Shown here in pieces: positions 33,708 through 62,257 of a stretch of 64,000 bases of DNA. Below the pieces are notes generated by a model. That model had not been told where the DNA came from, searched no databases, and saw only the letters and a list, made by a program, of their open reading frames with translations. Each line of letters begins with the position of its first letter. Position 1 is the first letter of the stretch. Made by a program: the position numbers and the translations under genes. Where the stretch lies: NCBI GenBank assembly GCA_030272155.1, contig CP126205.1:3832501-3896500 (forward strand), read 5' to 3'. This stretch comes from Tetradesmus obliquus. Taxonomy: Eukaryota; Chlorophyta; Chlorophyceae; Sphaeropleales; Scenedesmaceae.

Positions 33708-34097
33708 TCATGAGCACAATGCACCCAGCGTGTCGTAGCGTTTGTCGATAGCCTGCTTGCATGCATCCAATGCAACAACTCTTTCTAACGCAGCTGTTAG
33801 ATCAGTCCCGCCCCACCTGGGAATCATAAAAGTGTCACCGTAGTGGCACATACACACCGTACATGAAGCACCGAATACAGTCACATGTAACATCGACCAG
33901 GTGACTGTCTCACCTGGGGATCATGAAGGTGTCACCGTAGCGGTACCGCAGCACGCCGGGAACGTCACCGGGAACGCTGACCGGAGTTCCCCTGAACTTC
34001 ATAGTTCCCAGTGGGAACACCAGTGACGCCGGCACGTCACACAAGTCACCGTGCCCCTGGGGGATAGCTACCATGGGGCCCAATGCGCTTGATGGCT

Positions 34098-34131
<34 letters not shown>

Positions 34132-36461
34132 AATGTCGACTTGCTGCTGCTGTTCTGTGGCGCTGCTGCTGCTGCTGCTGCTGGTGGTGGGCTCAACTGC
34201 TGCAGCGGGCTGGGGGCTGGTGAAGCCTCCATACTGCGACAGCACACAACACAACAGCTCACACACAACGGCAGCGCATGGCGTCATTTGTATGGCTTGA
34301 ATGCGGCCCAAGTTGTTGGAAACGACACACAGCAGCATACAGCAGTAACAGCAGCAGATATGGCAGCCATGGTGCGCATCGACCATTGCCATGACGCAAG
34401 CGACCAAAAAAGGCGTGCAGAGGCAGCTGCAGCTGTGTTGTAACAAGCAGCAACACACAACATGTAACATGTCACCCACAAGGTCCATGATGCCCACTCC
34501 TGTCATAATGCGGATCCAGCGGATGCTGCGGTCCTCGCTAGGGATCACAAGTAACACTCCAGCAGCACCAACACAATCATTCAATAACATGACAAGGTAA
34601 CACAACAAATAACACGTCACCCACCAGGTCCATGATGCCCACGCCAGTCATAACTCGGATCCACTCAACGCTGCGGTCCTCGCTCAGCCCACACAAGACA
34701 CATCAGCATCACCACGCACCCCAACAAGTACAACATATATGTAACACAACAGGTAATTATGCATGTGACAAATTACCCACCAGGTCCATGATGCCGACTC
34801 CAGTCATGACCCTGATCCACCTGATGCTGCGGTCCTCGCTGGGGATCACGAAGAACACCCTGTAGGTGCGCGGCAGCCGCTGCCGAAGGCCCTCCAGTAG
34901 TGTGTCCCAATCAGGGTCCAGGATGACAAAGTCGGCGTCATTGTCGTAGAAGATTATGTCCTTCTGCAGGTGCGGGAAGAGGCACAGAAAGATAAAGATA
35001 CGCGTGTGTGTTGGTGAGCGTCCCAATCAGGGTCCAGGATGACAAAGTCGGCGTCATTGTCGTAAAAGATTATGTCCTTCTGCATGTGGGGTAAGCGACA
35101 CACATGTGCACAGGGAAGTGCTACGTTAATGGAATGGGCTTGCAAGAGGATGCTGACCACAACTGCTACTGCTGCCGCTGCTGCTGCTGCTACTGCTGCT
35201 GCTGCTGCCGCATCAGCCCGCCGCCTCACCTCCCTGTACATGCCCAGCAGCGTGAAAAAGCCTGCTGCTGCTGCTGCTGCTGTGTGTTATTAACAGCAAG
35301 ATTACTGTGTAATGCTCACCTCCCTGTACATGCCCAGCAGCGTGAATATGCCTGCTGCTGCTGCTGCTGCTGTTGCTGTGTGTTATTGACAGCCAGATTA
35401 CATAGCAATGCTCACCTCCCTGTACATGCCCAGCAGCGTGCCAAAGTCCGCAAAGTAGCGCACACCCATCTGGTCCAGCACTGCAGCAGCAGCAGCAGCA
35501 GCAGCAGCAGAACAAAGCAGCAGTCATAGTATGCCCTGTGTGCCTCAGGCAGCACAGCAAGCTTCTCCCTGCTGCTGTGATGCTTTGCTGCTGCCTCGCA
35601 TCTCGCATCCAGCAGCAAGTCTTTCCGACATTCTGGCACTGTGTGTGTGAGGCAGCACGCTGCGCATGTTTCCTGCAAGCAAGCGGCATCACACTGCTGC
35701 TGCCGCTCACAGCTTTCTTGCAACATCCATTATCGTGTCTGCCGCAACTGTCGTGTGTATAAGCAACAGCACAGCGATTTGACTGATGCTCAGCGTCGCG
35801 CCTGCTGCTGGTTGCGCCCACCTGGAGCCACGTGGCGCACCAAGCTGCGCAGGTTGTGGCGGCGCAGGTGCTGGTAGCCCTGCGGCAGCAGCAGCAGCAG
35901 CAGCAGCGGCAGTGGTGTTAAGCAACCTCAGACATCGACAGTACCTCATGAACTGCATGCTGACACAGAGCGGGGGTTGCTCAGCAGCAGCGGATGCTGC
36001 TTCAGTGGCCTGCCAGCATCACTGGCGCAGCTGAAAAGCCGCAGCTGTTGCATAGCGCATGCCACAAGCCTCTTCAGTAAGATTCCCCTTGAATAAGCAG
36101 CTTGCAGGAAACACAAATTGCAAAAGAACAGCATCTGATGCTTGCAAATCAAGCACTGTTAGATGCTGCAGCATATGCTGCTTTGAATCCTCTTCAACCT
36201 CAGCATAGCGCAGCACCTGCTTACCTGAATGCCTGCTTTCGCGCCACAGTAGAGGCTGGTTGCCACTACAACACCCATAGCAACTGGCGAGCGCTTAGCC
36301 ATTGGCAGCTCCTCAGCAGCAGCACTGTCATCACTGCTGCTGCTGTTGGTGCGCCTGTGGCGCGCCGGCCTCTTCGCTCGGCCCTCATCTGCCTTCTTGA
36401 GCTCAGAGGCTTCCATCATTGGTCGCTCAATTGCCAAGGGGTTTCGCCAGCCCGCTGTCAT
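33708..36461 (-). CDS. LicD/fukutin-like family protein, probable Golgi membrane enzyme
   Basis: Probable nucleotidyltransferase-fold enzyme that transfers phosphosugar or phosphocholine-type groups to glycans. Exons (minus): 36225-36461, 35822-35879, 35416-35480, 34781-34963, 33914-34233, 33708-33816; phases agree where they can be tested. It starts MTAGWRNPLAIERPMM, followed by a hydrophobic stretch (VAMGVVVATSLYCGAKAG) fitting a type II anchor. Core motifs: RYFADFGTLLGMYRE (family GTLLG), then KDIIFYDNDADFVILDPDW (Asp-rich metal/nucleotide site). C-terminal signature: VFPLGTMKFRGTPVSVPGD, then RYGDTFMIPRWGG, matching the FP..F.G..V.VP...YL..YG..M.P pattern of LicD proteins. Introns hold extra copies of exon edges, and the last intron is flanked by a direct repeat. 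The exon 1/2 junction is the least certain. Confidence 0.72.
33801..33930 (-). repeat. Direct repeat forming both ends of a 97-bp intron
   Basis: The end of exon 5 (ctacggtgacaccttcatga...CCCAG|gtg) and the acceptor of exon 6 (ctacggtgacacttttatga...CCCAG|GTG) are copies, 27 of 30 identical. The intron runs 33817-33913. Splicing AG|gtgaga to CCCAG|GTGGGG restores MIPRWGG in frame; unspliced RNA stops at once (CCC AGG TGA). Confidence 0.8.
34480..34860 (-). repeat. Triplicated 3' edge of LicD-like exon 4 with donors
   Basis: Three copies of SEDRS-x-x-WIR-(V/I)-MTGVGIMDL, each followed by gtgggt, end at 34781 (used in the model), 34625 and 34480, spaced 156 and 145 bp. The outer two lie inside intron 4. 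Confidence 0.85.
35020..35085 (-). repeat. Extra copy of the 5' edge of LicD-like exon 4
   Basis: About 65 bp encoding KDIIFYDNDADFVILDPDWD, preceded by its own acceptor (cacatgcag) and nearly identical to the start of exon 4 at 34963. It lies inside intron 3. Confidence 0.85.
35230..35440 (-). repeat. Triplicated 3' edge of LicD-like exon 3 with donors
   Basis: Three copies of the segment encoding LLGMYRE followed by gtgag end at 35416, 35318 and 35230, spaced 98 and 88 bp. Each is separated from the next by CTG-rich sequence. Confidence 0.85.
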
Positions 36462-37765: not shown

Positions 37766-37767
37766 AG

Positions 37768-37935
37768 GCAGCGCCAAAGCCTCCCTCTAGCTGCAAGTTT
37801 ACGTCGCTGTGACCGCCGCAGCTGCTGCTGCTGCTCAACCCTAGCAGCCCCAGCCGCAATAGTCACCGCCGAAGCCTCCCTCCAGCAGAAAGTTTGCGGC
37901 CACCTCCTCATTCTGCCGCAGGCTCACTGTTGCTG
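37768..37935 (-). repeat. Two extra copies of the RAD23 C-terminal coding end
   Basis: Downstream of the RAD23 stop, [17 protein letters not shown] recurs near 37866-37917 after its own acceptor-like cggcag. A more diverged copy (LQLEGGFGAAW) lies near 37768-37800. With exon 4 itself that makes three copies of the end of the UBA2 domain. Confidence 0.8.
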
Positions 37936-38021: not shown

Positions 38022-39019
38022 TTAGTCAGCGCCGAAGCCTCCCTCCAGCAGAAAGTTTGCCGCCACCTCCTCGTTCTTGTCGCAGGCCAGGTAGGCCTCG
38101 ATGGCTGCGTCGCGCTCAAAGCCCAGGCCCTGCAGCCGCTGGATGGCTGCATCATCAGCCTCGCTCAGCTCAATCTGCATGGAGACAACACGGCAAAAAG
38201 AGTGGCAAGTGGTTTGGGATACAACAGGCAAGAGCAGGCAAGAACACACCAGAGAATGGCCGCAGGAAGATACACCGCAGAAAGAGGGCAGCAAAGGAAA
38301 TGAAAAGCACAAATCAGGGATGGTGGTCAGCCGCACCTGCACCATGCCGGGCGGCAGTCCACCTGCTCCGCCCCCTCCCATGCCCCCCAGCAGCTGCACC
38401 ATCTGCACCATCTCGTCATCCTCCTCCCCTTCACCCGGGCACCGTGCTGCCAAGCCCAGCAGAGCAACCGCAAAGCGAAACCAACCAGCTGAAGAAACAC
38501 AAACCAGCTAGCCAAACACAGCCGCTGCCTGCAATCAGCAAATACATGCGAAGAAAAGTGGCAAGCAGAAGCAGCCGCACCTGCACCATGCCGGGCGGCA
38601 GGCCGCCTGCGCCACCACCTCCCATGCCGCCCAGCAGCTGCGCCATCTGTGCCATCTCGTCATCCTCCTCCCCTTCCCCCACCGGGCGCCTCCATGACCA
38701 TGCGCATGAACTGGCCCTGGTGCGACCATGAAGCAAATAACACATTACAAGCAAAGAACATACCGCAAACATACGAACAAAATGCCAAAAGCTAGCTGTG
38801 ATAGTGGCCTTGTACTGCAGCCGTACCTGCACCATGCCGGGCGGCAGGCCGCCTGCTCCTCCCCCTCCCATGCCGCCCAGCAGCTGCGCCATCTGTGCCA
38901 TCTCATCATCTTCCTCTCCTTCACCGGGCGCCTCCATCACCATGCGCATGAACTCGCCCTGGTGCGCAGATATCTGCTGCATCAGCTGAGGGTTCTGCTT
39001 GCGCAGCTCCTGCAAGGCG

Positions 39020-39058
<39 letters not shown>

Positions 39059-39159
39059 TGTGAGTCACGGCAGCAATGCAATATTTGCGGTGAGGCGTGT
39101 CTACTGCTCTGCTGCATCAGCTGAGGGTTCTGCTTGCGCAGATCCTGCAGGGCGAAGCA

Positions 39160-39192
<33 letters not shown>

Positions 39193-39290
39193 ATGTGAGT
39201 AGCAGTAGCAGTGTAATCCTTGCAGGTTTGGCTTGGCCTCTGATCTGCTGCATCAGCTGAGGGTTCTGCTTGCGCAGCTCCTGCAAGGCG

Positions 39291-39359
<69 letters not shown>

Positions 39360-39467
39360 TGTGAGTAGCAGTAGCAGTGTGATACTAGCGGTTAGGCTAG
39401 TCTACTGCTCTGCTGCATCAGCTGCGGGTTCTGCTTGCGCAGCTCCTGTGGTGACGGAGAGTGTGAT

Positions 39468-39498
<31 letters not shown>

Positions 39499-41377
39499 TG
39501 ATGTATGATCAGCAATGTATGTACACGGTTGCAGGATCCCCTAGCGCAGCTCACGCGCAGTAGGGTGCGCTATTACCAGAGGACAGCACAAACTGTTGGG
39601 CACTGTTAACATGGCAATTGCAGAGTTTTTCAGCATGTGACAAGCAGCAGCAGTGCATTACTCGCTGGTGCTTCTTTCTGGTCTGCTGCATCAGCTGCGG
39701 GGTTCTGCTTGCGCAGCTCCTGCGCATGAAGGGTGTGACGTAATCAGCAGATGCAGCAGTTGCAGCAAACTCTTATGTGGCAATACTACTCAGCAGCAGT
39801 GCACCGGCTGCGAGTTCTGCCGGTGCAACTCCACGGATGCGTGTACATTAACACCCACAAGTAAACCCTCATCACAAACAACCACAGCCTCAGCAGTCCA
39901 CCTGCAGCATGGGCGCCATGTCTGAGTTGCTCTGCACCAAGCGCCGCAGCCGCTGAACCCAACACAGACGGGCGCAAACCGCTCGACCACTTTAAAACCC
40001 TCAGACCTAGGTCCCTTGAACCCCTGAAACCCACCTGCAGCATGGGAGCCAGGATGTCCGGGTTCGTCTGCACTGCACGCCGCAGCAGCTATAACCTACC
40101 ATACAGGGGCGAAGCACCCTCAATCACTTGATATACCTGTGTACAACCTGCACTCCTGGAACCCCAAAAACGCACCTGCAGCATGGGTGCCAGGATGTCT
40201 GGGTTGGTCTGCACCGCGCGCCGCAGCAGCTGGAATTGAGGGTTGCCGCGCAGGAAGTCCAGCGGGCCACCCTCGCCACCTGCTGCTGCAGCGCCGCCAG
40301 CAGCGGCGCCGGCACCACCAGCAGCAGCGCCGCCGCCGCCGCCAAACATATCAAAGGCCTGAGGGGCAGGCGGGCCTGCTGCTCCGCCAGCCGCAGCACC
40401 GCCAGCAGCAGCTGGTGCAGCTGCCCCTCCTGCTGCTGGTGCTGCGCCGCCAGCAGCAGCAGCGGCCCCGCCTGCTGCTGCAGCGCCTGCAGCGGGGCCG
40501 GCGGCGCGGTGTGCGGCATGCTCTGGAATGCCTGTCATGAGGTACTCTACTGCACGCTCGGGGTTGTTGTATGCTGCGCGCATTGCACGCATCACATCTT
40601 CGCGTGGGAAGCCCATCTCTGTCATGCTGGTTACTGCCTGCTCCAGTGCCGGTCCTGCAAGCAGGTGGCTGGCAGCTGCCGAGTAGGGATCTGCGGGCTC
40701 CGCTGCTGCTGCTGCTGCTGGCTCAGCTGGTGCAGCTGCTGCTGCAGCTGGCGCTGCTGCTGCTGCAGCTGGCGCTGCTGCTGCTGCGGGCTCGTCCACT
40801 TGCATGGCTGCTGGCTGCAGGACAGCAGTGAAAGACAAGCCGCAATGATGAAAAACAACAGTGTGGGGCATCAGATGTGCCACATGCACGTTGGGTTGAG
40901 TTCACACTGTAGTGCTTGCTGTCTGGGGACAGCTGCAACCGCTATAACTGCCACATGTCAGTTGCAGGAACTGCAGCAGCATCCTCCACGAGGCGGCATG
41001 CCAGCTGCATCTACCTGGTTTGTTACAACCAGCTTCACTACTGGCATCACTGCCACTCTCACCTCTGCTGCTGCCGCTGCGGGTGCTGGGGCAGAGCTGG
41101 AGGCGCCAGCAGTGCCTGCAGCTGCTGCTGCTGCTGGCTTGGCCACTGCCTTCTGCACGAACACCACCAGAAAGCCTGTCTCGTCCACGCTGTACTCGGA
41201 GACAGCCTTTGCATCGTCGTCCAGCACCTTGCCCTTATACACAAGCTTCAGCTGCTCCTTTGGAAAGGCCTCGCCCTGCGATGACTCCACGGAGCTCTTG
41301 AGCTCGCCAACTGTGGTTGTTGGCTCTGCTTCTACGTTGAACGTAGAGCCCTTGATGGTCCTGAACGTGAGCTTCAT
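38022..41377 (-). CDS. RAD23: RAD23-type ubiquitin-receptor / XPC-stabilising protein
   Basis: Shuttles ubiquitinated substrates to the proteasome and supports nucleotide excision repair by binding XPC/Rad4 (family knowledge). Exons (minus): 41063-41377, 40176-40814, 38827-39009, 38022-38174; every junction is phase 0. The N-terminal ubiquitin-like domain starts [19 protein letters not shown] and includes [14 protein letters not shown] and [11 protein letters not shown]. An Ala/Pro linker follows, then UBA1 ([20 protein letters not shown] to YLMTGIPE), a Gly/Ala linker, the XPC-binding domain ([20 protein letters not shown], then [23 protein letters not shown]) and UBA2 ([20 protein letters not shown] to [11 protein letters not shown]). 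All four RAD23 domains are present in order. Introns 2 and 3 and the 3' flank contain repeated exon edges with splice sites. Confidence 0.9.
38337..38940 (-). repeat. Triplicated 3' edge of RAD23 exon 3 with donors
   Basis: Segments encoding EEDDEM, LLGGMGG and GLPPGMVQ, each followed by a GT donor, end at 38827, 38581 and 38337, spaced 246 and 244 bp. The middle copy has an altered ggtgggggaagg stretch that shifts the frame, so it is probably not coding. Confidence 0.85.
38970..39735 (-). repeat. Five copies of the 5' edge of RAD23 exon 3 with acceptors
   Basis: cag followed by the segment encoding (E)[11 protein letters not shown] begins at 39009 (exon used), 39144, 39280, 39445 and 39719. 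Most are preceded by a CTG-sense tract or a pyrimidine-rich acceptor. The second copy has gatc for gctc next to the splice site; the fifth has an extra C (accccgcag). Confidence 0.85.
39291..39357. repeat. (AGC)n tract, about 22 units, intronic
   Basis: Pure triplet run within RAD23 intron 2, directly upstream (in sense, CTG) of the exon-edge copy starting at 39280. Confidence 0.95.
39900..40235 (-). repeat. Triplicated 3' edge of RAD23 exon 2 with donors
   Basis: Segments encoding [18 protein letters not shown], or close variants, each followed by gt, end at 40176, about 40034 and about 39904, spaced about 142 and 130 bp. The outermost copy has diverged ([13 protein letters not shown]). Confidence 0.85.
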
Positions 41378-41493: not shown

Positions 41494-43657
41494 ATGGCGA
41501 TCAGGGGCGTGAGTGCCAGACAGGCTGCGTGGGGTGCCCTCACGAGATGCACTGCTGCAGCTGTACAACGAATGCCTTCTGCGTGGCTAGCTCTCACCCT
41601 GAAAGTTTATGTGACACACGGCCGTATGTTTGATGGGTTCAGCCTACAGGCTGCTGCTGTTCGACTTGAACACTGCTTGTGCAGTGGACGCAAAGCTGTT
41701 TGTGTCGACTGCTGGCTTCAATCGCCCCAAGCAGCTGCATGAACGTACATGTGCAGCCAGAGACACCAGTATTGACCACTGCATCACACATGCAGCTGCC
41801 TGCCTGAACCACAGAGGCGCTCAGTGTGACTGACACAACTGACAAACTGCTGGACTTCCACCCCAGCACACAAGCATGCAGGAAGCCTGAGCTGGGGCAG
41901 ATGAGCCTCTTGTCGGTATGTTCACAGCAGCCTGAACTAGTCCTTAGCTCTTATGCTGAAGCAGCTGACGTCACAGCAGCAATGCTGCAGGCATGGCAGG
42001 CAGTGGCAGAACCACACAGCCGCTGTGCAAAGCTGCAGCCTGCATCTCAGCAGACAGCAAGCATACAGGCCACAACACACGCACACAACAACATTAAAAG
42101 GCAGTGTAGTAGTGTGGGCGCAGCCCGAAGGCTCTGCAGATGCTGAAAGCAGCAGTACAGGAGGGGCACAGGACCCATGGCAGCAGCAGCAGCAGCAGAA
42201 CCCGCAGCCCACACTCAATGACGGCATTACCTGGTGAGTGGCGAGCTACGCTGTGTGGAGGTGCCAACATGCACATATGACTCTTCTATGAGCTTGCGCA
42301 GTCACACTGCTGCAAGATGTAACTGCCTCTTATATGCTGGTGTGCTGTATGCCGTGTGTTGTTGTGCCGTGCGCCTGGCGTCGCTGCAGGTACTGCTACA
42401 CCGCACTAGGGCTACTGTTTCTGACAGACTTCACGCCCTTAGGTAAAGCCCTGTGCCAAACTCTGTGCACTGCAGCCGTATACTCAGAGCCGCAAGATGT
42501 TGTCAGCTCGCCCACGGCAGTTTCCATCATCATGCAGCAGCAGCCAACAAGGGCTGGTGGTGACTTGTAAATGGTTTTGCTGCTTGCTTGACTGCAGGCC
42601 AGTGGCTGTTGTCTGCCCCCCTGACACTGCAGCAGCAGGCCCTGCCGACCGCATCACCTCACAGCCACTCTTCTTTTTATTGCTGCCATGCCTGGCTACT
42701 GGCCAGTGGCTGCTGTCCGTCTCAAGCACCGCAGCAGCAGCCTGTGCCGGCTCTGTTTCCGTTCAACGTCACTGTCCGTCATGCTGCTGTCATGCCTGCA
42801 GGCCAGTGGCTGCTGTCTGGTTCTCCCGGCACTGCAGCAGCAGGCCGGCTGGCGCTGCTGCAGTGGGGAGCATTTGTGCTGCCCACACTGTATTGGATGC
42901 GCAGCAAGGGCTGGGACGTGAGGGCAGTGCTGCAGCTGCAGCAGCTGGGGACGCTGCAGCAGTGGCTGGCTGGTGAGTCAAATTACTTTGACCAGGTTTG
43001 ACCATGTTTGACCAGGGATAACAGCTGTGTGCAGTGGCACATAGCTCTGGTTTGACCAGGCGCACAGCAGTGCAGACCTGCCACAACAGCTGCCATCTCC
43101 TGTGACAGCCTTGCCAATCACATGATGAGATGATTTCAGCAACAAAACCCATCACAGCTTGCTGCACCAAGCTGCCGCACTTCCTGCAGCGCATGCTTAT
43201 CTGCTTGGCTCTCCCTGCTTCGCATGTCCCTGCTGGTGTTATCCCATGTACGGCACCGCTGGCCACTCGCTCTGCTGTTTCTTCTGCTGTTGCTGCCCAA
43301 ATGCAGGCCTCGCCGCTGGCCCTGTGCTGTGGGCGCTCATCAATGCAGCAATTGCAATCAAGACCGGCAACACAGATACCTGGCTCGCAGCAGCCGGTGA
43401 TGCTGCAAACAGCAGCAGCGGTAGCAGTCCTGGAGTGCTGCTGCTGGGGGGTGGAGGCAGTGAGGCAGGGGTGGGCTGGGGCCAGCTGCCGCAGCTGCTG
43501 CTGGCAGCAGCAGTCTCGCCTGCAGGTGAGAATGCATTGCCTGCTCTGCTGGCACGTAAAGTAGGATAGTCACCAGTGAGCAAGACGCACACGTTTGCAC
43601 ACAAACACTAAAACGTTTTTGCGCGTGCACAACTTGAACTGCTGCTGGTGCTGCTGC

Positions 43658-43721
<64 letters not shown>

Positions 43722-45240: not shown

Positions 45241-45825
45241 ATGCCATTACCTGTTCAATGTCTGAAGCAATGTCTGCGCTGCATTGTTGCTTGTCCCGCA
45301 GCTCCTTCAAACAGGCCTGCGGCCGCACCGGTAAATCATGTTTGCTGGGCACTTTTTATGAATTATAAGTTCATGTTGCTGTTGCTGCCGCTGCTGCTGT
45401 CATCATCGCCTCAACCTACCTCGCAGCTCCTTTGAGGAGCTGTGTGGCGGCTACGGCACCGGCAGCATCGCGTTCTCTGGCACCGCCTGTATAAGCAAAC
45501 AAGTCATGCTGCTGCTGCTGCTGCCGCTGTGTGTCCTTCAGCTCTTTTGAGAGAAGCCGTGTGGCCGCTGGGGCACCGGCACCATCGTTTTCGCCGGGCA
45601 CCTCTGTCAATCTGACTAGTGCATGTATCTGCTGCTGCTGCTGCTTCCTCATCTCTTCGATCCACCCGCAGTTCTTTTGAGAAGCCGTGTGGCCGCTACG
45701 GCACGGGCAGCATTGTCTTTTCTGGCATTGCTGGGGGCCTGGAGAAGTGGGACAGGACTTGGGACTTCCCCGTGACAGGTGAGAAATAGTGGCAGACAGA
45801 ATCAGCCGCCGCCGCCGCCGCCGCC

Positions 45826-45878
<53 letters not shown>

Positions 45879-46269
45879 AGCATGCATATGATGCTTATTT
45901 GTTCCCTGGCAGCCTGAAGAAGTGGGACAGGACCTGCGACTTCTCCGTGACAGGTGAGGCAGCAGCAGCAGCAGCAGCAGCAGCGGCAGCGGCGGTAGCA
46001 GCAGCAGCATTGTCTTTTCTGGCATTGCTGGGGGCCTGGGGAAGTGGGACAGGACCTGGGCTTCCCCGTGACAGGTGAGCAGCAGCAGCAGCAGCAGTTC
46101 GGCAGCAGCAGCACTGCCTGAGACTAGTGACAGGTGCGGCACAGCACGGTCGAGGATGTTTAAAGTGCGGCTTTTCAGATGCGTTTGGTTATGTATATAC
46201 TGCACGACTTGTTTACCTGCCAACACAGAATGCATGTTATTGCATCGACTGCCACTGATGCCGCTGTGC

Positions 46270-48350: not shown

Positions 48351-48392
<42 letters not shown>

Positions 48393-48814: not shown

Positions 48815-48889
<75 letters not shown>

Positions 48890-49699
48890 AAAGAAAACGT
48901 GTTGATGAAGTAGTCATCCAACAGTCACACCATGTCTGCAGCAGAGGCTCAGCACGCAGCATGCTTCAGCCAGCACACTGCCGCCTAACCAAAAGAAGAA
49001 CCAAACTGAACCAAGTCCAAGGCAGATGAAGCGTTGCACTAACACACCCGCCTACCTTGCAAACAGCTGCGCTGGCGTGCTGCCTGCTGCCGCTGCTGCT
49101 GCCTCCATTGCATCTGCCAGCACCACCAGCGACCTGGCCAGCAGCACAGCCAGCAGCGCAGCACTCGCCCTGCACTGCTGTGCAGCCATCTTTCTACTGC
49201 TACTGCTGCTGCTGCTGCCGGCTGAAGCCATGTCAGACTGTGGTCCAGCTGCAGCTTCCTCAGCCTTGCAATTGCTGTGCTTTCCAGCAGTGTTGCAATC
49301 AGGTGAGGCATAACAGCAGGAAAACACTGCGCTGCAAGCGCCGCCATTGCTGCTGCTGATTCGCTGCCGCCTGCCAGCTGCTGCTGTGCTTCTCTGTGTG
49401 TTGTGCCCACTGCTTTCGTCACCACTGTCGCCTGCTTCACGATACTTGCAAAAGCACACGCGTATGCAGCCACTGCTGCTGGGTCACTCAGCGCAGCCTC
49501 CTGGAAATACCCTTTCAAGGATGCAGTTGGCACCACGCATGCATGCCTGAGCACGTCTGCTGCTACAAGGATGTCCTCAGCCTGGAAGTGCGGCGAGCGC
49601 ACGCAGCCGTCCACCAGGCGGCAGTATGCTACTGGGTGGGCAGCCGCCAGTCTGGCCAGGCTGCTGCTTGGCAGGTGAGCTGGCAGCTTTGCATCAGGT

Positions 49700-49759
<60 letters not shown>

Positions 49760-50712
49760 GTGACCCAGGGCAGTTTTAGCAGCCGTGGCAGCGGCAGTGA
49801 CACAGAGGAATGTTCATGCACTGTCATGATCGTGATCATGTACTATACTGTACTAGTGACTGCCAGCTGCTTTGTAGCTCTAGCTCCTCAGGATCACCGC
49901 CAGCGCCAAGTGATGAGTATCTCAATCATACTAGTATGAATCGCTCAGCAAGCCGCATCACAACATCAACCCACCTGCCAACTTCTCTTGCTTATCGCTT
50001 GATGTTTCGCAGGCGCATTTGAGCAGCATCAGCTGCTCCCCTGGTCCCTCCTCTGACCCATTCACAGCGCCCTCACCGCCCAGCTGCTGACTCAGCCAGC
50101 CAGACCGGTCAAGGATCAGCGGGGCAGACAGCGCCGGCAGCAGCAGCAGCCCATGCTGCTGCCGCAGCTGCTGCAGGCTGTCACCCTGGGCTGCAAGCGC
50201 AGCCTGCAGCTGCGTGCTGATCATCTTATTGATGAAGCGCAACAGATATACAGAATGCTGGGTTGAATCCAGAGACTGCTGCTGCTGCTGCTGCTGCTGC
50301 TCTGGATGAGCTTCTTGCGCTTGGCTCTGCACTTGCTGCTGCTGCTGCAGCGCCTGCAGCTGCATTGCCAGCAACAGCTGCAGCTCCAGCGTCAGGCGCA
50401 GCGCAGCAGCTGACACCGCAGGGGAGCGCTGCAGCGCCTGCACACGCTGTGCACGGCCTCCCAGTGACAACCTGCAGCTGTCATTTGGCAGGACATGTGA
50501 TAGATGAAAGTCCAGAACGCTGAGTGCAGCCTCCATGCCCGCTAGATCGATGTGGTGCAGTCGGTCACACGGGGTGGTTGCCTGCCTGCTGTCTGCTGCA
50601 ATGCCTGCTGCAGCCACCACTGATGAGATGGCTACATACTTGCCCCAATTCGGCAGCAGCCAAGGCCGGCCTGCTGGGCAGCTGCCACTGCCGCTGTTGT
50701 TGAAGAGGCCCG

Positions 50713-50745
<33 letters not shown>

Positions 50746-51072
50746 AGCTGCTGCTGTTGCTGCTGCTGCTACTGATGTTATGCTGCTGCTGCTGCTGCAT
50801 GTGCTGCTGCTGCAGCTGCTGGCGGCACGCTGCCAGCCGCTGCAGGGCTGCTGTGGCCAACACCTGGCTGTTGAGGCACTGCACCAGCAACTGTGCAGCT
50901 TTTGTTCGTGAACCAATGTTGTCAGCATACTCGCTGACCAGCGAGTGCATGAACCACAGTATGTTATTCTGCATGTTGATCGCCGCCTCGACAGATCGTT
51001 CTACTGTGCAGAAATCCGGCTGTGCCGCATGTTCGCTGGCGCATGCGGCTGCAGGATCGCCGCTGCTGCTGT

Positions 51073-51103
<31 letters not shown>

Positions 51104-52411
51104 CTCAGGAGCCTCTTCAGCTGCTAGTAACAAACACAGGCAGTGCTGCACCACCTGCAGAGTCGGCTGAACCAGCCCCACTGCGCCATGCGCTACCTGC
51201 AGCACAGCGGAGCGCTTGGATGCGATGTGCGTCCCTTGTGCGCTGGTACAAAGCATATCCTGCAATATGTCCCACAGGCCGAGCTGGGTGTCCAGCAGCT
51301 GCGCGATGCTCTGCAAGCCATGCTGCCCTAGCTGCTGCTGCTGCTGCTGCTGCTGCTGCAGCAGGGCCAGCCAGCTCTCCAGCAGCCCTGCGCAGTAGCA
51401 GCAGCAATATGCCACAGAGTAAGCCAGAAGCACAGCAGCGGGTGACACAATGCCTGCAGCAACATACAGATGCGAACATTACGTGGAGTCCTGCCACCTG
51501 CTGCCGTTGAGCAGCTGTGCGGCTTTACCCTCTTTGCCTTAGCATGGTTTGGGTATATAGGTAGCCAGCTGCGGCAACACAGCCCAGCCAGACCACAAGG
51601 ACCCTTTACTTGGGTACAGAAACACTCTTTTACTTGATACAGGGGCACCCTTTGCTTGGGTACAGGGGCACCCTCCACTTGGGTACAGAAACACCTTTGC
51701 TTGGGTACAGGGGCACCCTCTACTTGGGTGCAAAAACACCCTTTGCTTGGGTACAGGGGCACCCTTTACTTGGGTGCAAAAACACCCTTTGCTTGGGTAC
51801 AGGGGCACCTGTTTTGGTGGCGCTGGCTCACCTGCTTCAGCCAGGGCTTGTGTGAAGCAGCGTACTAGGTCAATCGAGGGCGGGCTGCCTGACTCGCTGA
51901 TACTGCTGAGGCTGCTTACCAGGTTGGCCAAGCATGCCATGCAGTGCTGCCACAGGCACCACACACTGGCAGACGGCCCATCAGCTGCAGCTGCTGATGC
52001 TGCCTGTCCTGCAAGGGCCTCGCCCTGTTCGGCCGTGAACAGGCACTCTGGGCGCTGCTGCAGCCACATCAGCAGACGAGCCAGCAGCTGCGGCAGGCGC
52101 TGCTCTGTCAGCAAATCATGCAGCAGCTGCTCCAACGTTACTCGACTGGCAGCATCGCCGGCAGATGGCAGCATGCGCTGCACTTCAGCAAGTGCTGCTG
52201 TCAGCTTGTGCAGGAGCAGCAGGCTGGATTGCATGGCCTGCACTGCTGGGTCACTGCTCGCTGCTGCTGCTGCATCTGGAGGCGGCCTCCGAAGAAGCCT
52301 CGCATGCTGAGTGGCTTTCCACAAGCTGCTTAGCTGCTTGGCTGCCTCGCCTGCCTGTTGCAGCGCATCTTCAGCTGCTGATGTACTGCCGTTGCTGCTG
52401 CTACTAGCCAT
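47764..52411 (-). CDS. MYND-finger protein, family member C (apparent one-base frameshift)
   Basis: Best preserved family member. Exons (minus): 51832-52411, 49975-51453, 49056 to about 49690, 47764-48616. It starts MASSSSNGSTSAAEDALQQA. Family blocks include LLHKLTAALAEVQRMLPSAG, LLARLLMWLQQRPECLF, CAGLLESWLALLQQQ, SQVLATAALQRLAACRQ, GRPWLLPNWGKYVAIS, LAAAHPVAYCRLVDGCVRS and SAALLAVLLARSLVVLADAM. The C-terminus holds a MYND zinc finger: VCNHLGCENL...KVCGGCGAYYCSAAC and ADRKRHKHAC, a protein-interaction module. Within exon 3 the frame reading LIATLLESTAIARLRKL differs by one base from the frame reading SDMASAG...ALLAVLLARS, with a shift at about 49225-49275: a sequencing error or a disabling indel. 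Poly-Ser, Ala and Gln runs are abundant. Role unknown. Confidence 0.7.
48755..48892. repeat. Compound (ATT)n(GTT)n microsatellite
   Basis: About 60 bp of att/tta repeats with a few interruptions, followed by about 75 bp of uninterrupted gtt repeats. It lies in intron 3 of MYND-family member C. It is the only large AT-type triplet tract in a window dominated by CAG/CTG. Confidence 0.97.
49699..49757. repeat. (CAG)n tract before a MYND-C acceptor
   Basis: Pure run, CTG in gene sense, just upstream of the start of exon 3 of MYND-family member C. Confidence 0.95.
51605..51815. repeat. 23-bp intronic minisatellite
   Basis: About nine units of cttgggtacaggggcaccctttg, alternating with cttgggtgcaaaaacaccctttg-type units. 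It fills much of intron 1 of MYND-family member C and begins about 16 bp inside the donor at 51831. Confidence 0.93.
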
Positions 52412-53223
52412 GTGGCTGTTCCGCGAAACTTCGGCGGTTATTCCTGTGATTCTGTGGTTCAAGCACCCATAGAGCGTTGCGCCTTTCGCAACTTTGCGGA
52501 AACGAAACGACACGTACAACGGTGCTAGGGCTAGATCACTTACTGATTGGTCTTTGAAAGCCGCAAAAACTGAATATCAATAAGATGGGAAGAACAAAGT
52601 GTTGCAGTGAGCAAAATCAGCGAGGCACATGGCAGGATCGTGACTTTGTCACGGCACTCCCGCCCTTCCCCGTTTGACCGTTGATTGTTGATCACAGCTG
52701 TTCAAGCTTCACACCCAAACCCCGATCCGGCCCCACACCTGCTGTTAACATGAAGTTTGCAGAGTGCTGTGATCAACTTTAAACTGCGATAGCCAAGGCA
52801 CTTTTGCTTCATCGCAAGACAAGCAACCCAATCCATATGGTGTGTCTGCAGCCCGCGCATGACTTGAACTTCGAGCCCGCGTGACGAGGGTGTGATAGCA
52901 CTGCTGAGCAAGATGCTGCTGTCAATGCAGTGTCCATGCATCCTCTGCACACAGCTGCTGCTGCTCACCAGCTTGGGGCCTGGTTAGCACACGCCACTGG
53001 CACCTGTTTAGTAAAATTTGTACCAAGGGGCACCCATCTCACTGGCACCTGTTTTGTAGAATTGTTACCAAGGGGCACCTATCTCACTGGTACCTTGGCA
53101 AGCCGACAACTGCCCTGCCCCTGGCCAGCCACACCACCAGCAGCTGCAGCTGCTCTCCCTCATAGCGTCTGCCAGCCTGTCCACCTGGCCTGGCCGCTCA
53201 GAAGCAGACTCACTCGGCTTGTG

Positions 53224-53270
<47 letters not shown>

Positions 53271-53301
53271 GTGGTGATGGTGGCTCAGCCTACAAGTCGC
53301 C
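52412..53301. other. Intergenic between MYND-C and MYND-D
   Basis: 5' flank of member C and 3' flank of member D. It contains a roughly 46-bp direct duplication at about 52995-53085 (cactggcacctgttt...accaaggggcacc, two copies) and a CTG tract at 53228-53267. No gene recognised. Confidence 0.5.
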
Positions 53302-53418
53302 TCATTTGACCACCTGCCCTGCCGCCATCATCCTCCTGCAAGCATGCCTGTGCCGCTTCCTGTCAGCAGCTTGGCAGGCAGCGCTGCAGTAGTAGGCCCC
53401 GCAGCCGCCACACACCTT

Positions 53419-53952
53419 TTTGTTTTTTTTTGAAGCAAGAACGTTACAAGGGCTGACCTAAATAACTGTGCACTTGCTATATAAAAAGATCCATTGAGAG
53501 AGTGAGGCAACCTGTTCCGCACTCACCCCACAGGTCTCTTGTACCAAGAGACGCTGTCACACGATCATGCAGACAGCCCCGTGCGGAGCAGCCCCGAAAG
53601 GCATCCAGGACCTGACCGAGTGCCCAGACTCCACTAAAATCACAGTCGCGCAATGACGTCATGTGATGTGTGACAGGCCGTGACTGGCCCTTGAAATAAA
53701 AGCTGTCCATAGTGTAACTGTCAGCTATCACTGCACGGTGACTTGCGCACCTGTAAGAGCTGCACTTTACAGGCAGCATTACGTCACCCACACAAGACGC
53801 CTATTAATAGGTGACGGATTGTCGACACAGACCATCCCCACCTGACTATTCATAGACTCTCCACTTCATGCAAGCACATTCTGCTACTGACCGAACATAC
53901 ACCTATGAGATATGTGGCATTCTGTAGAAAATGACACCACCTCAGGCACACA
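53419..53952 (-). mobile_element. Retroposed polyadenylated insertion (SINE/LINE 3' end or retrocopy)
   Basis: About 534 bp inside the MYND-finger coding sequence of member D, flanked by acacctt at 53412-53418 and 53953-53959 (aaggtgt in gene sense), a 7-bp target-site duplication. In gene sense the insert ends TTGTAACGTTCTTGCTTC followed by nine A, a C and more A. The TGTAA about a dozen bases before the A-tail matches the green-algal polyadenylation signal, so an mRNA-like RNA was probably reverse-transcribed and inserted. No protein domain was recognised in it. Confidence 0.75.
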
Positions 53953-55204
53953 ACACCTTGCGCGCTGCTGCTGACTCCCTGCACCCAGAAAGGTTCTCAC
54001 AGCCCAGGTGGTTGCACACCCGCGGCAGCGGCGCTGCTGATGCCACAGCCCGGCACAGCCGCAGGGCATCAGCATACAGCTGACATACATCCACCTGCTG
54101 CTGCTGGCTGCTGCTATTACTGCCTTCATGACTCGCACTGGCTGTTGCTGCTGGTGGAGGCTGCTGGTTGGCCAACGTCACAGCACCCTCCAGGTCAGGC
54201 CACTTGCTGTTGAAGTGCTGTAGCCTATTGCTGCAGCTGCCCAGCGCATCAACCACGTAGCCCCACCTGCGCTGCACAACACTGCTGCTGCTGCTGCCGC
54301 CGCCGCCTGTGGCGGTGGCTGCCCTGCTTGCCTGTGCGCTGTCAGCAGCACTGGCTGCATCTGCTGCTGCTGCTGATACATCCCCCGCTGGTGCTGGTGC
54401 TGGACCTGCTGCTGCTGCTGCTGCTGCACCAGTGCAGTTGTCTGCTGACAGGGCACACAGAGCCTCATGCAGCACACAGAACGCACGCAGCACCTTCACC
54501 TGGTACTGCTGCCACTGGCCAGGCACGCTGCGGTGCTGCGGGCCTCCCAGCAGCCCAAATTCCGCATAGAGATCAGACAGAACTGCAGGAGCCATTCCAG
54601 TTGTTGCGGCACTGCTTGCCTCCCACCGCATCCTGAAGGCAGGCTTGCAGGAGAAGCACCTACAGCACATCATCAGCGATGCAGGAATTGTGAAAATGCT
54701 GCTGCTGCTGCTGCTGCTGCTGCTTGACGCCACCACACCATCCACCCCAGGCAACACAAACTCCTTGGCTGTCCAGCTTGCGATTCCAGCTGTGACTGCC
54801 AGCAACCTCATAATCAGCTCAGGCACAACAGCTGGAAAAAACTGCACTGCAGCTGCAGGTGGTGCTTCGCTGCTGCCTGCCAGCTGCTGCTGAGCTTGGC
54901 CGTGTGCCCTGCCTGCTGCCTTGGTCATCACTGCTGCCTGCTTCGCCACGCTTGTGACAGCAGACAGGAATGCAGCCACTGCTTTTGGTAGACGAAGCAG
55001 AATCTCCAAGGGCGTTTCTGCTGATGAGCCGGGCCGCACAGTAAGTGCATGCCAGAGCACATTTGCTGTTGCAAGGATGTCTTCAGCCTGGAAGCGCTGT
55101 GAGCGCACGCAGCTGTCAACCAGGCGGCAGTATGCTACCGGGTGGGCAGCGGCCAGTGCGGCCAAATTACTGATCATCAGCCAACGCAACAGCACTGCAT
55201 CTGT

Positions 55205-55205
<1 letters not shown>

Positions 55206-55252
<47 letters not shown>
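55206..55252. repeat. (CAG)n tract upstream of MYND-D exon 3
   Basis: CTG in gene sense, in the same place relative to exon 3 as the tract at 49699-49757 in member C. It continues into interrupted caggcaggcagcagcag to about 55290. Confidence 0.95.
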
Positions 55253-55254
<2 letters not shown>

Positions 55255-56269
55255 CAGGCAGCAGCAGCAGGCAGCAGCAGCAGCAGGCAGGAATGGTGAC
55301 ACACGACACATATGGCAGCAAGGCAGCAGCGGATGATGGCACAGCGCATTCGTGTGCAGCCATCACCGACAGTGCGTTTGACAAAGAGTTGTTTACACAA
55401 CAACGTCGCTTGGCAATCCAGATGCATACCCCTTGACACCAAAATAAATGATCTTCAAGGCCAACCTGCAGGATCTGCAAACCAAAGCTTGGTGCTGCCT
55501 TTGTCAAGCGAGGCTTAACACATTCTGCCAATCATTAGCACTTGCGTGTTGCCCGCAGTCACCAACATGTGCCCATGCCACTAGTGCCACACCTCAGCTC
55601 ACCTTCACGCGCCTGGGGCCCGCTGCCTGACGCTTTACAGACACCTTCAAGCAGCATCAGCTGCTCGCCTGCACCAGATGATGACCCATTCACAGCCGCA
55701 GCACTCTGCAGCTGCTGGCTCAGCCAACCACACCGGTCCAGGACCAGCGGGGCAGACAGCACTTGCAGCAGCAGCAGCCCATGCTGCTGCAGCAGCTGCT
55801 GTAGGCTGTCACCCTGTGCAGCAATTGCAGCACGCACTTGAGCCCGAACCGTCCTGCTGATGCCGAGCCATAACATGCTCAGTGATCTTCCAAGTGATCC
55901 TGGAGACTGCCCTGACTGCTGCTGCTGCTGCATTGCCTGCAGCTGCATTGCCACCAGCAGCTGCAGCTCCAGCATCAGCCGCAGCGCAGCTGCTGACACT
56001 GCTGGGGAGCGCTGCAGCGCCTCAGCTGGCTGCTCAGCGCTACAAAATAACACACCCAGCCGCTCTCCTTGCAGGTTGGTGCTCAGCTCACCCAGCACAG
56101 CTGCTGCGACCTGCATGTCTTGGCGCAGCATTTGAAGCTGGGCAGCAGGGCCACTGCCGCCTTTCAAACCACCTGCAGCGGATACTGCAGACACGTAAAC
56201 TTCCCAGTTGGGCAGCAGCCAGGGTGGCGTGCCCTGAGCAGTAGCTGCTACCATCGCTGCTGCGACCAG

Positions 56270-56303
<34 letters not shown>

Positions 56304-56311
56304 TGCAATCA

Positions 56312-56344
<33 letters not shown>

Positions 56345-57972
56345 GCTGCCGCAGCAGGAGCTGGCGGCAGGCTGCCAGCCTCTGCAGTGCTGCTGTGGCC
56401 AGCACCTGACTCTGCATGCACCGCTGCAGCAGCTGTGCAGCATCTGCTGGTAATCCTGCTTCTCTGACATCAAGTTTGACCACTCTATGTACAAAGAATG
56501 CACGTGCAACTGTATGTTGACAGCTGCCGCAATTGCTCGGCCAACGTTGCACGAAGGCGCTGTGCAACTGGAACGCTGCCACCTGCTGCTACAGGATCGC
56601 TGCTGCTAGCACTGCTGCTGCTCAGGCCTTCTGCTGCCACTAGTAATGTGCGCAGGCACTGCTGCAGCAGTTGCAGCGTTGGCTGCACCAGCCGCACTCC
56701 TCCATGCACCACTTGCAGCACATCAGGCCATGTGAGGGCTGTTTGGTGCACCTCAAGCGCGCTGCGATCTAAGACACCTTGGCACATTCGCCACAAGGCG
56801 ATGAGGGCGCCCGGCAGCTGTGAGAAAACCAGCAAGCTGGCCTGTCCCAGCTGCCCCAGCTGCGGCTGCTGCTGCTGCTGCTGCTGCAGCAGGGCCAGCC
56901 AGCTGTCCAGCAGCCCTGCACAGGCAGTGGAGGCATGCCACACAGTGAGCCTCAGCCACAGCAGTGAGAATAACATCAGGATTGACAACACTGACTGCTG
57001 TTCGATTACAGACATCACTCCTGGCTGGCATTGAGCAAGTCAGGCGTAGAGTGAGGGACGATCAGGCCGCAAAAGCAGACTGCAGGCTGACACAGCAGAT
57101 GCATGGTTACTGCTGGCCAGACGCATGAGCAAGGGCAGTGCAGCAGCTCCCAGCAGCATTCAACTCAAATGCAGCGCACAACAGTATGGTTGAACTGTTG
57201 GATTAGTGGCAGTCAAGCCCACGATAGGGGCTGTTAGGAAACAAAGGTTGAGTGAGCTTAACAGCAGTGTGCCCTGGACACTCAAAATGCAGGGCTGGCA
57301 TCAGTAGGATGTACTTTGTGGTTGCATGAGCTGCACCACATGCTGCTTTGCAGCGTCTATACACAGCTGGTCAAGAAGCCGCAGCTTACCTGCTGATGTG
57401 ACTGCTTCCAGGAAACGATGTGTGCTGTCAATTGCCATCTCGCTGCTTGGATTGCAGGCCAAGGAGCCGCATGCCGCGCCTGCAATGCCTGCAATGCACG
57501 CTGTGCAGTCTCGCCATAGCATGGCAGTGCTGACAGGCTGCCCCCCAGCTGCTGCTGCTCTTGTTGCTGCTGCTGCTGGTTTTGTTGTGCACAGGCACTC
57601 TGGCCGCTGCTGCAGCCACAGCAGCAGCTGCGCCAGCAGCTGCGGCACGTGCAGCTCTGTTATCAGCGCATGCAGCAGATGTTTCGCATGAAACTTCGTA
57701 GCGCTTTTCGCTGCTGGCGTCAAAAACGACTGCACTCCACTGAGTGCTGCATTCAGCTTGTGCAGCAGCAGCAGGCTGGTCTGCATGGCCTGAGCTGCTA
57801 GCCCGCTGCTTGCTGCTGCTGCATCTGGCGGGGTACTCTGCAGCAGATTGGCATGCTGCCTACAACTCCAGAGGGTGCTGAATTCCCTGCCTGCCTCTTC
57901 TGCCTGCTGCAGGGGAGACAGCGCAGAACTAAATGCTGAGGTACTGCTGGTGTCGCTGCTGTTGGTGGCCAT

Positions 57973-60219: not shown

Positions 60220-60264
<45 letters not shown>

Positions 60265-62257
60265 GCTTTGCATGCTGCTGTTCAGCTGCTGCAGCTGCTG
60301 CCGCCACCAGGAGTGCTCGGGTGCAGCCATGCGCTCCGACACTGCTGCCGCCACCAATGCAGCAGCATGGCGTAGCGTGTCAGAGGCAGGGAGGTGCCCT
60401 GTAGCACTTTCCGTGGCTGTTGATCCAACAAAAGCTGGATGGCTGCTTGCACTGCTGCTGCTGCCGGCCGGCCAAACTGCTGCTGCTGCTGCTGCGGCGG
60501 CGGCGGCGGCTGGGTTAGGTCCTGGCGTTGGCACCACCTGCTCCTGCGAGCTGTGTGGTCCCATTGGTGATTGCTGCTGCTGCTGCTGCTGCAGCGGCAG
60601 TAAGCTGTAGTGCATGGATGAGCGCGGCTGCTGCTGCTGCTGCCCAGCAAACCACCAGCTGCCCCTGGCCCAGCCAGGCGACTCCTGCAGCACAGCAGGC
60701 CGTGCAGAGCAGGGCAGGCCGGCAGTGCAGAATGGTGTGTAAAGCTAACACCACAGCAGTGCTGGTGCACTTGCAGCCTGAAGAGGCTGGCATGAGGTAA
60801 GTAGCAACTAGTTCTATGCCTGGCTGCCTGGCACGACTGAAACGACTGCAGCACAGCTGCATGCGCAACTACCTAGGCAGGAACCCAAACAGGTGTCCAG
60901 AGCAGGCCATTGACAGAGTGGTTACTTTTGCCATACCGCTTACCTGCAGCAGCGTTGCCAGCAGCTGGCTGCCCAGGTGCTTATGTAGGAACCCCGGCAG
61001 CAGCAACAGTACGGTTTCAACCGTAGCTATAGTTGGAAAATGCAACACCCCACGGCTCACCTGCAGCAGCGTTATCATCAGCAGCTGGCTGCTCAGCTGC
61101 TTACGCAGGAATACCAGCAGCATCAAGAGCGCACCGTTACCGTACCTACACTTGGTAGCTGCTCCAAACATCCCTTTGCTTACCGGCAGCAGTTCAGCTA
61201 GCAGCTGGTTGCCGAGCTGCTTGGGCACGAACCCCAGCAGCAGCTCGAAAGGGCCCAGGCGCTGCAGCACTGACAGCTGCAGTGGCAGGCCTGGCTTGGA
61301 AGTAGCTTCTCCTGCAAAGCGTGCATGGGCCCCCACAGGGTCAAACCTGCTGCGTTGCCACCATTTGTCAGAGCCTTGGTACTGTGCAGCAACTGCTGCT
61401 GCAGGTGGTGGTGCTGGTCGTGGCGGCTTTGCTGCTGCAGGCGCAGCATGGCTTTCAGCAGTCGCTGCTGCTGCTTCTGCTGCTGCAGGTGCAGCATTCC
61501 GGCGCATTGGACGCAACGGCAGGCCTGGCCTGGCTGCAACCTCTCCTGCAAAGCGAGCATAGGCTACCACTGGGTCTGCTCTGCTGCGCTGCCACCACTG
61601 CTGATCAATGGGGCTGTGCGATTGTGATGCTGCGCTGGCTGCTGTTGCAGGTGATGGTGAAGGTGCTAGTGGAGGGTGTGCTGCTGCAGGCAGAGAGTGG
61701 CTTGCAGGAACTGGTTCTGTTGCTGCTTCTGGTGCTGCTGCATGGTGCGTTGGCTGGTGTGATGGCTGTCCTGCAGAATTGAGCGGCGCTTGCTGCTGCC
61801 GCTGTGTGCGGCTGTTTGGTGGTTGACCAGTCAAACACAGTGCTGCTGCGGCTCCTGCAGTGTGAGGCTGCTGCGTTGCAGCAGCTGTGGGTTGTGCTGC
61901 TGCCAGGGTATCAGCAGCGCCAGCTGCCGCTGCTGCGTCTGCATGGCTGCCTGCTGTGACGTGTGCGTCACATGATTCTTCTGGTGTCGATGCTTCAGCA
62001 GTATGAACTAGCACATGGTTGCGCCCGTCTCTGGCATGTGCTGCTGCTGCATCTGCTGCTGCGTCCAAAGCTACTGCTGGAGCCTCTCCCTTGCTACGCG
62101 ATCGTGGAGTCGGCGTTTTAGGCTTGATAAAGAAGTGCTGGGTGAGCTGCGTTTGCCTGCTTTTGGTACGCGAGGGTGTCGGTCCGGTGGGCTTCTTCGC
62201 TTTGCCCATGAGGATAGGCAGCAGAGGAGGATGCTGCACGTGTAATGGTGTCGACAT
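58876..62257 (-). CDS. AlkB-type 2-oxoglutarate/Fe(II) dioxygenase with PIP-box-like N-terminus
   Basis: Oxidative demethylase of alkylated nucleic acid (family knowledge). Exons (minus): 61184-62257, 59674-60684, 58876-59028; junctions are phase 0. After MSTPLHVQ and MGKAKKPTGP, the segment SRQTQLTQHFFIKPK resembles a PCNA-interacting peptide. A WWQRSR-x-DPV...ARFAGE...PGLPL module occurs twice. AlkB-fold motifs: FELLLGFVPKQLGNQLLAE, WARGSWWFAG...PRSSMHYSL, ALANLYAHGQESVGPHTDRL (H-x-D iron ligands), IASVSLGTARLFRLRP, LPDRSLLIMWPPCQEEWRHE (third His) and GTARINLTFRS (R-x-N-x-T-x-R, 2-oxoglutarate binding). Long Gln/Ala/Ser inserts split the catalytic domain. Intron 1 contains two more copies of the exon 1 end with donors; intron 2 contains a 35-bp minisatellite. 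The closest match is an ALKBH2/3-like DNA repair enzyme (inference). Confidence 0.82.
59167..59518. repeat. 35-bp intronic minisatellite, 10 copies
   Basis: Unit ctgcctggccaga(t/g)gagcctgaggatgaagcacaa. The four left copies carry cagatgagcc and the six right copies cagaggagcc, a clean two-block structure. The 35-bp period is not a multiple of three and the unit has no minus-strand stop, so all minus frames stay open; these frames are not counted as coding. The array lies in AlkB intron 2. Confidence 0.97.
60224..60264 (-). repeat. (CTG)n tract encoding poly-Gln in AlkB
   Basis: CAG in gene sense; encodes a run of about 14 Gln between the segments LNSSMQSK and APPCLHID in exon 2. Confidence 0.95.
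60944..61240 (-). repeat. Triplicated 3' edge of AlkB exon 1 with donors
   Basis: Three copies of the segment encoding F-(V/L)-x-K-(Q/H)-L-(G/S)-(N/S)-QLL, each followed by gtaagc or gtgagc, end at 61184, 61061 and 60944, spaced 123 and 117 bp. Only the first continues an open AlkB frame in the right phase. All three are in one open frame, so inclusion of the extra copies would be tolerated. Confidence 0.85.

Follow-up and report, generated by a model that had tools for sequence, protein, structure and literature searches.

Tandem copies of exon edges in introns and a possible history of duplication and exchange

Why would an intron hold several copies of the edge of the exon next to it? The question is raised by a window of 64 kb, the whole stretch of DNA analysed here (C15:3832501-3896500, from a genome of 104.66 Mb on 17 contigs), in which an earlier note had described tandem copies of exon edges in the introns of five genes. 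A masked self-alignment of the window recovered the arrays that had been listed, with a best E value per array of 2e-10 to 1e-57. In the RAD23 gene, an identity with Pfam support, copies were found at 38328, 38572 and 38818, at 38973, 39108, 39243, 39409 and 39682, and at 39898, 40031 and 40173. The features are as follows, with the block of the functional exon called the parent and its copies called echoes:

38827..38966, minus strand: 3' part of RAD23 exon X with its donor, parent block; the junction agrees with single-copy homologues
38581..38720, minus strand: donor-side echo 1 of exon X, a 140-nt block
38337..38438, minus strand: donor-side echo 2 of exon X, a 102-nt block
38973..39009, minus strand: 5' edge of exon X with its acceptor, parent, in the XPC-binding domain
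39108..39723, minus strand: four acceptor-side echoes of the start of exon X, near 39108, 39243, 39409 and 39682
40176..40231, minus strand: 3' end of RAD23 exon W with its donor, parent, from the alignment
40035..40090, minus strand: donor-side echo 1 of exon W, with mismatches at 5/19 wobble and 0/37 other positions
39902..39958, minus strand: second echo on the donor side of exon W, carrying a deletion of 3 nt and mismatches at 1/18 wobble and 5/36 other positions
37860..37923, minus strand: echo of the end of the last RAD23 exon, past the stop codon; parent 38023-38087

The RAD23 junctions can be regarded as fixed, because joining the exons at the exon-proximal copies gives one open frame whose XPC-binding region matches three of the five relatives aligned. 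Alignment identities to five relatives are 82, 62, 73, 58 and 69%, and the named members among the best 20 relatives are organisms that we take to be green algae. Compared with the parent, donor-side echo 1 of exon X differs at 7/47 wobble and 1/93 other positions and echo 2 at 8/34 and 2/68, each with one frameshifting indel, while the acceptor-side echoes retain the CAG and about 37 nt of the exon. The echo past the stop codon, which is absent from the list in the earlier note, lies 163 bp downstream of its parent and has an identity of 0.93 over 40 coding bases and of 0.33 over the 40 bases beyond the stop. Of 44 predicted stops, this one alone has a clean echo; 12 further gene-end matches at predicted stops were minisatellite, paired or weak. 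Since the end of the last exon is echoed beyond the stop codon, splice junctions are not the sole edges that have been duplicated.

Likewise, copies were found at the positions previously reported for the LicD-like gene (34461, 34600 and 34762; 34904 and 35020, 93% identical; 35225, 35315 and 35411), the CPBP gene (42577, 42680 and 42782), the dirigent-like gene (45424, 45539 and 45646; 45713, 45906 and 46010) and the AlkB gene (60935, 61052 and 61178):

34480..34858, minus strand: LicD-like donor array; parent 34781-34858, echoes 34625-34684 and 34480-34557
34906..35079, minus strand: LicD-like acceptor array; parent 34906-34963 and echo 35022-35079, which differ at 1 of 58 exon bases
35225..35446, minus strand: donor array in the LicD-like gene, made up of three short edges that are nearly identical, from the masked self-alignment
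42577..42857, plus strand: acceptor array in the CPBP (Rce1-like) gene; the parent runs from 42802 and its echoes from about 42598 and about 42700
45302..45727, plus strand: dirigent-like acceptor array; parent from 45672, echoes at about 45542 and 45427, with a weak one at about 45302
45713..46077, plus strand: dirigent-like donor array; parent ending at about 45778, echoes at about 45913-45953 and at 46010-46074
60935..61244, minus strand: AlkB donor array; parent 61184-61244, echoes at about 61061 and at 60944-61004

Pfam supports the names CPBP (Rce1-like) and AlkB (2OG-FeII_Oxy_2) as it does RAD23, whereas the tested pieces of the LicD-like and dirigent-like genes lack such support and keep the names given to them in the earlier note. 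The weak fourth copy near 45302 was detected by copy alignment only, and the dirigent-like donor junction was misplaced at 45746 by the gene finder. All three AlkB copies fall within a single open frame (60869-62263), so that their intron status is the least certain among the window cases. The same frame contains an internal in-frame tandem duplication of 234 bp (61284-61707).

Other repeats were also observed in the window. Paralogous regions, assigned to the MYND family in the earlier note, lie about 5.5-6 kb apart at 47754-57620, with blocks 73-94% alike and no exon-edge echo among the arrays. Inverted regions that are about 80% alike occur at 23998-29395 (23998-24282 with 29111-29395, and 24666-24951 with 28649-28934), perhaps as divergent gene duplicates. 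A minisatellite with a 29-bp unit and about 50 copies occupies 14545-15990, and a 118-bp tandem array with higher-order periods of 438 and 471 bp occupies 3654-5285.

How common such arrays are was examined in two samples, 20 systematically placed 10-kb stretches of the genome, of which one (L006) was all N and was dropped (19 used, 190 kb), and 30 Helicase_C loci (96 kb). Arrays were defined as direct repeats at a distance of 40-600 bp with E<=1e-4, with triplet and other short repeats masked. There were 59 in the 190 kb sampled, 67 in the 96 kb of helicase loci and 20, including a few plain minisatellites, in the 64-kb window. The smallest shift per array has a median of 119 bp (quartiles 108 and 163). 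No array appeared in order-1 simulations of the 19 stretches or in an order-5 simulation of 180 kb, and the sampled stretches held one inverted cluster versus the 59 direct arrays, which are thus laid out head to tail in direct orientation. Chance is thereby excluded, and the concern that the self-similarity might follow from base composition alone is answered by the same simulations.

Echoes were counted at junctions with an exon of at least 60 nt and an echo block of at least 30 nt, and were found at 22/380 junctions in the sampled stretches, 32/309 in the helicase loci and 9/111 in the window, or about 6-10% of sampled junctions. The junction positions rest on a self-made gene finder, trained with homology-anchored exons (29 of 30 anchors recovered), which labelled some copies as exons. 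Arrays overlap coding sequence in 121 of 146 cases, versus a mean of 87 and a maximum of 103 in 200 random shifts; they lie over junctions in 85 of 146 versus a mean of 67 and a maximum of 80, a modest excess that is inflated by copies labelled exons. Growth of the introns follows from how the arrays are laid out; the lengths of introns that carry an echo and of those that do not (183 versus 254) are affected by the gene finder itself and are no measure of it. We conclude that the exon-edge arrays are genuine and not limited to the window.

On the donor side, the exon body is followed by the exon block E, a spacer and further blocks (body-E|s1-E'|s2-E''|rest), and the acceptor side is the mirror image. 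Block length among counted echoes is 30-156 bp. In total there are 164 copies, of which 70 with an exon block shorter than 30 nt were excluded from the block-based, two-class and splice-site analyses. The claim that donor-side arrays have exactly three copies held in the window alignments (6/6) and failed in the genome sample (11/40): at 40 donor-side parents, with the limits on exon and block length given above and the parent included, there were 2 copies in 26 cases, 3 in 11 and 4 in 3. In one sampled stretch a repeat-bearing segment is present twice, about 5.5 kb apart (L014:2316-2768 and 7857-8309), with the compared 198-bp spacer identical; the duplicate (L014 8277) was excluded from the two-class fit, the in-frame stop count and the splice-site and spacer-flank analyses.

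The ungapped identity between echo and exon is about 0.91 beside the junction and at least 0.8 across about 35 bases (57 donor and 37 acceptor pairs). On the intron side, past the splice consensus, it falls to 0.32-0.52, compared with about 0.25-0.3 at unrelated junctions. Could the arrays be an artefact of assembly, by stutter or merged haplotypes? A single assembly is the basis of all the data, but the copies are mostly several per cent off the exon, the spacers often differ among copies and the nine contigs listed span 4.8-11.1 Mb, and we regard an artefact as very improbable.

As had been reported for the window, the copies usually carry a splice site, with GT intact in 49/57 and AG in 31/37. 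Their median site scores are a little lower than in the parents (6.27 versus 7.11 and 5.83 versus 6.59) and far above those of random intronic sites. This requires no extra conservation of the splice dinucleotides, because the adjoining exon bases are also about 0.9 identical. The outer ends of the copies differ from this pattern. Acceptor scores at the outer end of donor-side copies equal those of controls (n=55, p=0.54), and a strong outer donor was found at 0/37 acceptor-side copies. Control windows have one in 11% of cases and the parents, at the homologous position, in 27%, and the deficit possibly reflects selection against exonisation. The proposal of a decoy or alternative splice-site system is thus not borne out: GT and AG are retained about as the adjoining exon bases decay, outer acceptors are at chance level and strong outer donors are missing. 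In RAD23 and the dirigent-like gene, the phases of the copies and their AG/GT flanks had suggested mini-exons, a reading that the absent outer splice sites speak against; tested collectively on the 55 donor-side and 37 acceptor-side copies, the group as a whole is not supported as mini-exons, although single copies may be exceptions.

The differences are biased towards wobble positions. At the three codon positions a copy mismatches its parent at rates of.068/.052/.156, and copies mismatch one another at.110/.079/.170. In coding-labelled arrays the mismatches show a strong three-base periodicity (464 versus 399 expected; 0/500 permutations), which was not seen in noncoding-labelled arrays (439 versus 432; 111/500) and was not significant in the window by itself (174 versus 167; 52/500). 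A neutral copy beside a constrained exon is expected to have a ratio of non-wobble to wobble change near 0.5. The overall ratio is 0.38, and a two-class fit to 92 copies placed 60% at 0.56 and 40% at 0.20, with a likelihood ratio of 6.05 that was reached in 0/60 bootstraps. GC at codon positions 1, 2 and 3 is 0.70, 0.40 and 0.81, and the wobble excess may in part be mutation bias. A few copies look, from their substitutions, as if they had been coding-constrained until recently, namely L035 D 1507 (13/51 wobble and 1/101 other changes), L032 D 1697 (6/18 and 0/37) and echo 1 of RAD23 exon W.

One explanation is that coding selection acts on the copies, or did so until recently, as real parts of alternative exons. 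The wobble-biased differences, the constrained class of about 40% and striking cases such as L032 D 1697 and the exon W echo (5/19, 0/37) speak for it. It is opposed by the absent outer splice sites, and furthermore by the indels, of which 26 are frameshifting and 6 in-frame, in line with the frame-breaking changes noted earlier in the window. In-frame stops number 3 across 70 gap-free copies versus 5.7 expected, which is not a significant shortage. In addition, three of the five aligned RAD23 relatives carry the XPC-binding region once, and the other two end within the intron. We consider this explanation improbable; coding selection across all copies was rejected on account of the indels and stops, while a constrained subset persists.

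The origin of the arrays can be approached from those that are alike over most of a period. In 34 arrays the alignment spans 0.9 or more of the full period and encloses a predicted junction, with identities of 67-100%, which shows that junction-crossing tandem duplications occur in this genome and supports the suggestion of repeated local duplication over splice junctions. The most similar are L002 2627 (100%), L037 1044 (100%), L013 4834 (91%; L013:4834-5243) and L035 2794 (91%; L035:2794-3243, with a period of 214 bp). The aligned block covers less than 0.7 of the period in 76 and at least 0.9 in 17 of the 98 coding-labelled arrays, versus 16 and 27 of the 48 noncoding-labelled ones; the label is set by the nearest pair, so that some of the 48 are exon-edge arrays, for example the RAD23 acceptor array.

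In the arrays with short blocks, a trace of a duplicated intron piece was sought by comparing the spacer with the outer flank in 49 parents, after exclusion of 12 repeat-rich ones. A relation was found for 10/49 at rank p<=0.05 and for 39/49 at p<=0.5 (24.5 expected). The 10 are all among the 31 donor-side parents; on the acceptor side there were 0/18 at p<=0.05 and 4/18 at <=0.1, where n=18 puts the minimum p near 0.05. A shuffling test on unmasked sequence gave 25/63 and is indicative only. Related spacers and flanks are still more diverged than the exon blocks.

A rival hypothesis is that a mechanism linked to splicing, or to breaks at splice sites, copied the exon edge and its splice signal into the intron in a single step, in which case unrelated sequence would adjoin each copy and the block would end at the junction by construction. 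This fits the sharp step in identity at the junction, the excess of arrays over coding sequence (121/146) and two arrays, L002 A 2680 and L019 A 7964, with identical exon blocks and no detectable relation between spacer and flank. It conflicts with the 34 full-period arrays that cross a junction, with the spacer-flank relation in 10 of 31 donor-side parents and with the RAD23 echo that ends at a stop codon, which, as one clean case, also opposes splice-site targeting as a complete account. We find such copying unlikely.

We also considered the possibility that the spacer is a mobile element, which was not supported, as one spacer searched genome-wide matched only its own two copies. Similarly, a stretch of the LicD-like gene that includes one spacer matched itself only. 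The 63 sample spacers gave 413 matches at other loci (E<=0.01), and two triplet-rich spacers dominate among the matches listed.

Would tandem duplication followed by neutral decay suffice? Under neutral decay alone, by our estimate, the divergence of flanks would exceed that of exon blocks about twofold at most. The exon blocks differ by about 9% and the spacer and outer flank are often unalignable, so that, from these expected rates, duplication without exchange is unlikely. Furthermore, divergence from the exon is the same for near as for far copies (0.084 in 25 parents), the near copy being closer in 12 parents and the far copy in 11, and spacers resemble each other more often than the outer flank: at p<0.01, spacer 1 matches spacer 2 in 13/23 and the outer flank in 6/23. 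An array that evolves in concert while its ends stay outside would look like this, and from these patterns we infer recurrent exchange. The RAD23 stop-codon echo, with its identity step at a coding edge that is not a splice site, is a further point for duplication with exchange. Points against are the 10/23 parents in which spacers 1 and 2 are unrelated at p<0.01, the 0/18 acceptor-side parents with a spacer-flank relation at p<=0.05, the identical exon blocks without such a relation in L002 A 2680 and L019 A 7964, and the approximately 40% of copies with a low non-wobble to wobble ratio, such as L035 D 1507, for which neutral decay accounts poorly.

Yet another explanation is unequal recombination between strongly diverged alleles, in a hybrid or hyperdiverse population, which would join exon edges that were both formerly coding and make the spacer and flank allelic introns. 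Wobble-only differences beside diverged introns would follow directly, as in L035 D 1507, where the exon blocks differ by 25% at wobble and 1% at other positions and the introns are about 78% identical. Four-copy arrays with unrelated spacers 1 and 2 (L040 D 122, p 0.70) do not fit, however, and neither do the identical exon blocks beside unrelated introns in L002 and L019; we give this explanation little chance.

We hypothesize instead that tandem duplications across junctions found the arrays, and that exchange then keeps the exon blocks alike while the spacers diverge, a combined history that we think has about an even chance of being right. In a first step, a short tandem duplication with a period of mostly 110-120 bp would cross a junction and double the exon edge, the splice site and a piece of intron; the gene would survive, since the copy adjoining the exon body still splices and the remainder is intron. 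Further duplications of the unit would then give 2 to 5 copies, most of them evolving as non-coding DNA. Duplication in these two steps is supported by the arrays themselves. In a third step, the exon blocks of an array may exchange among themselves as well as with the functional exon, by unequal exchange or gene conversion, and the pattern of divergence suggests that the exon, being under purifying selection, could serve as a lasting template and permanent seed for the array. The spacers and the intron past the last copy would lie outside the exchanged block and diverge, leaving echoes that match the exon as far as the splice site and little further. Introns would thus grow from snapshots of exons, with no function required.

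More tentatively, and with some doubt on our part, this could be genome-wide source-sink concerted evolution, with exons as permanent seeds that rewrite their own partial copies in the adjoining introns. If this is true, introns grow out of neighbouring exons and archive their earlier states. Intron lengthening and the origin of intron sequence are usually studied where luck has provided an isolated case. Should partial exon copies of differing age stand beside an intact exon at several per cent of the junctions in a genome, the rate of duplication, the exchange between copies, the decay of introns and the tolerance of duplicated splice sites all become measurable in one species. The arrays are also a hazard for annotation, in that coding-like intronic copies with good splice signals mislead gene finders, as they did in this analysis.

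In the literature searched, which lay mostly outside subscription papers, we found no description of multi-copy exon-edge arrays at such density. Introner elements are repeated elements that affect many introns in an alga; many algal introns are affected here too, but the one spacer searched genome-wide is confined to its own array. Neointrons in Daphnia have internal direct repeats from staggered breaks, interpreted as repair scars together with intron growth (PMC4202315). Some are common to the adjoining exon, as here, but these shared repeats measure 4-12 bp, whereas our blocks measure 30-156 bp, include a splice site and stand in arrays. Small tandem duplications made by CST and Pol alpha-primase at breaks with overhangs (PMC8355091) could plausibly give rise to short direct tandem duplications, but have no described link to exon edges or lasting arrays. 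The AGGT model of intron gain by tandem genomic duplication (Rogers 1989, cited in PMC4974935 and PMC3443670) also supplies a gene with extra splice sites through local duplication. In that model a new intron arises between two exonic AGGT copies (PMC3443670), whereas the arrays described here lengthen an intron that already existed, with one splice site per copy; an AGGT-type intron bounded by the splice sites of two exonic copies was not seen among our copies, in which the outer sites are absent. In potato RdRp, a tandem duplication crossing an intron-exon boundary led to intron gain, in one gene and one event, with RNA reads confirming the new intron (PMC4974935). The arrays described here show no sign of new exons and differ in affecting about 6-10% of sampled junctions, at both exon edges and with up to 5 copies, and in having exon blocks more alike than their flanks; among known events, this junction-crossing duplication in potato comes closest to them.
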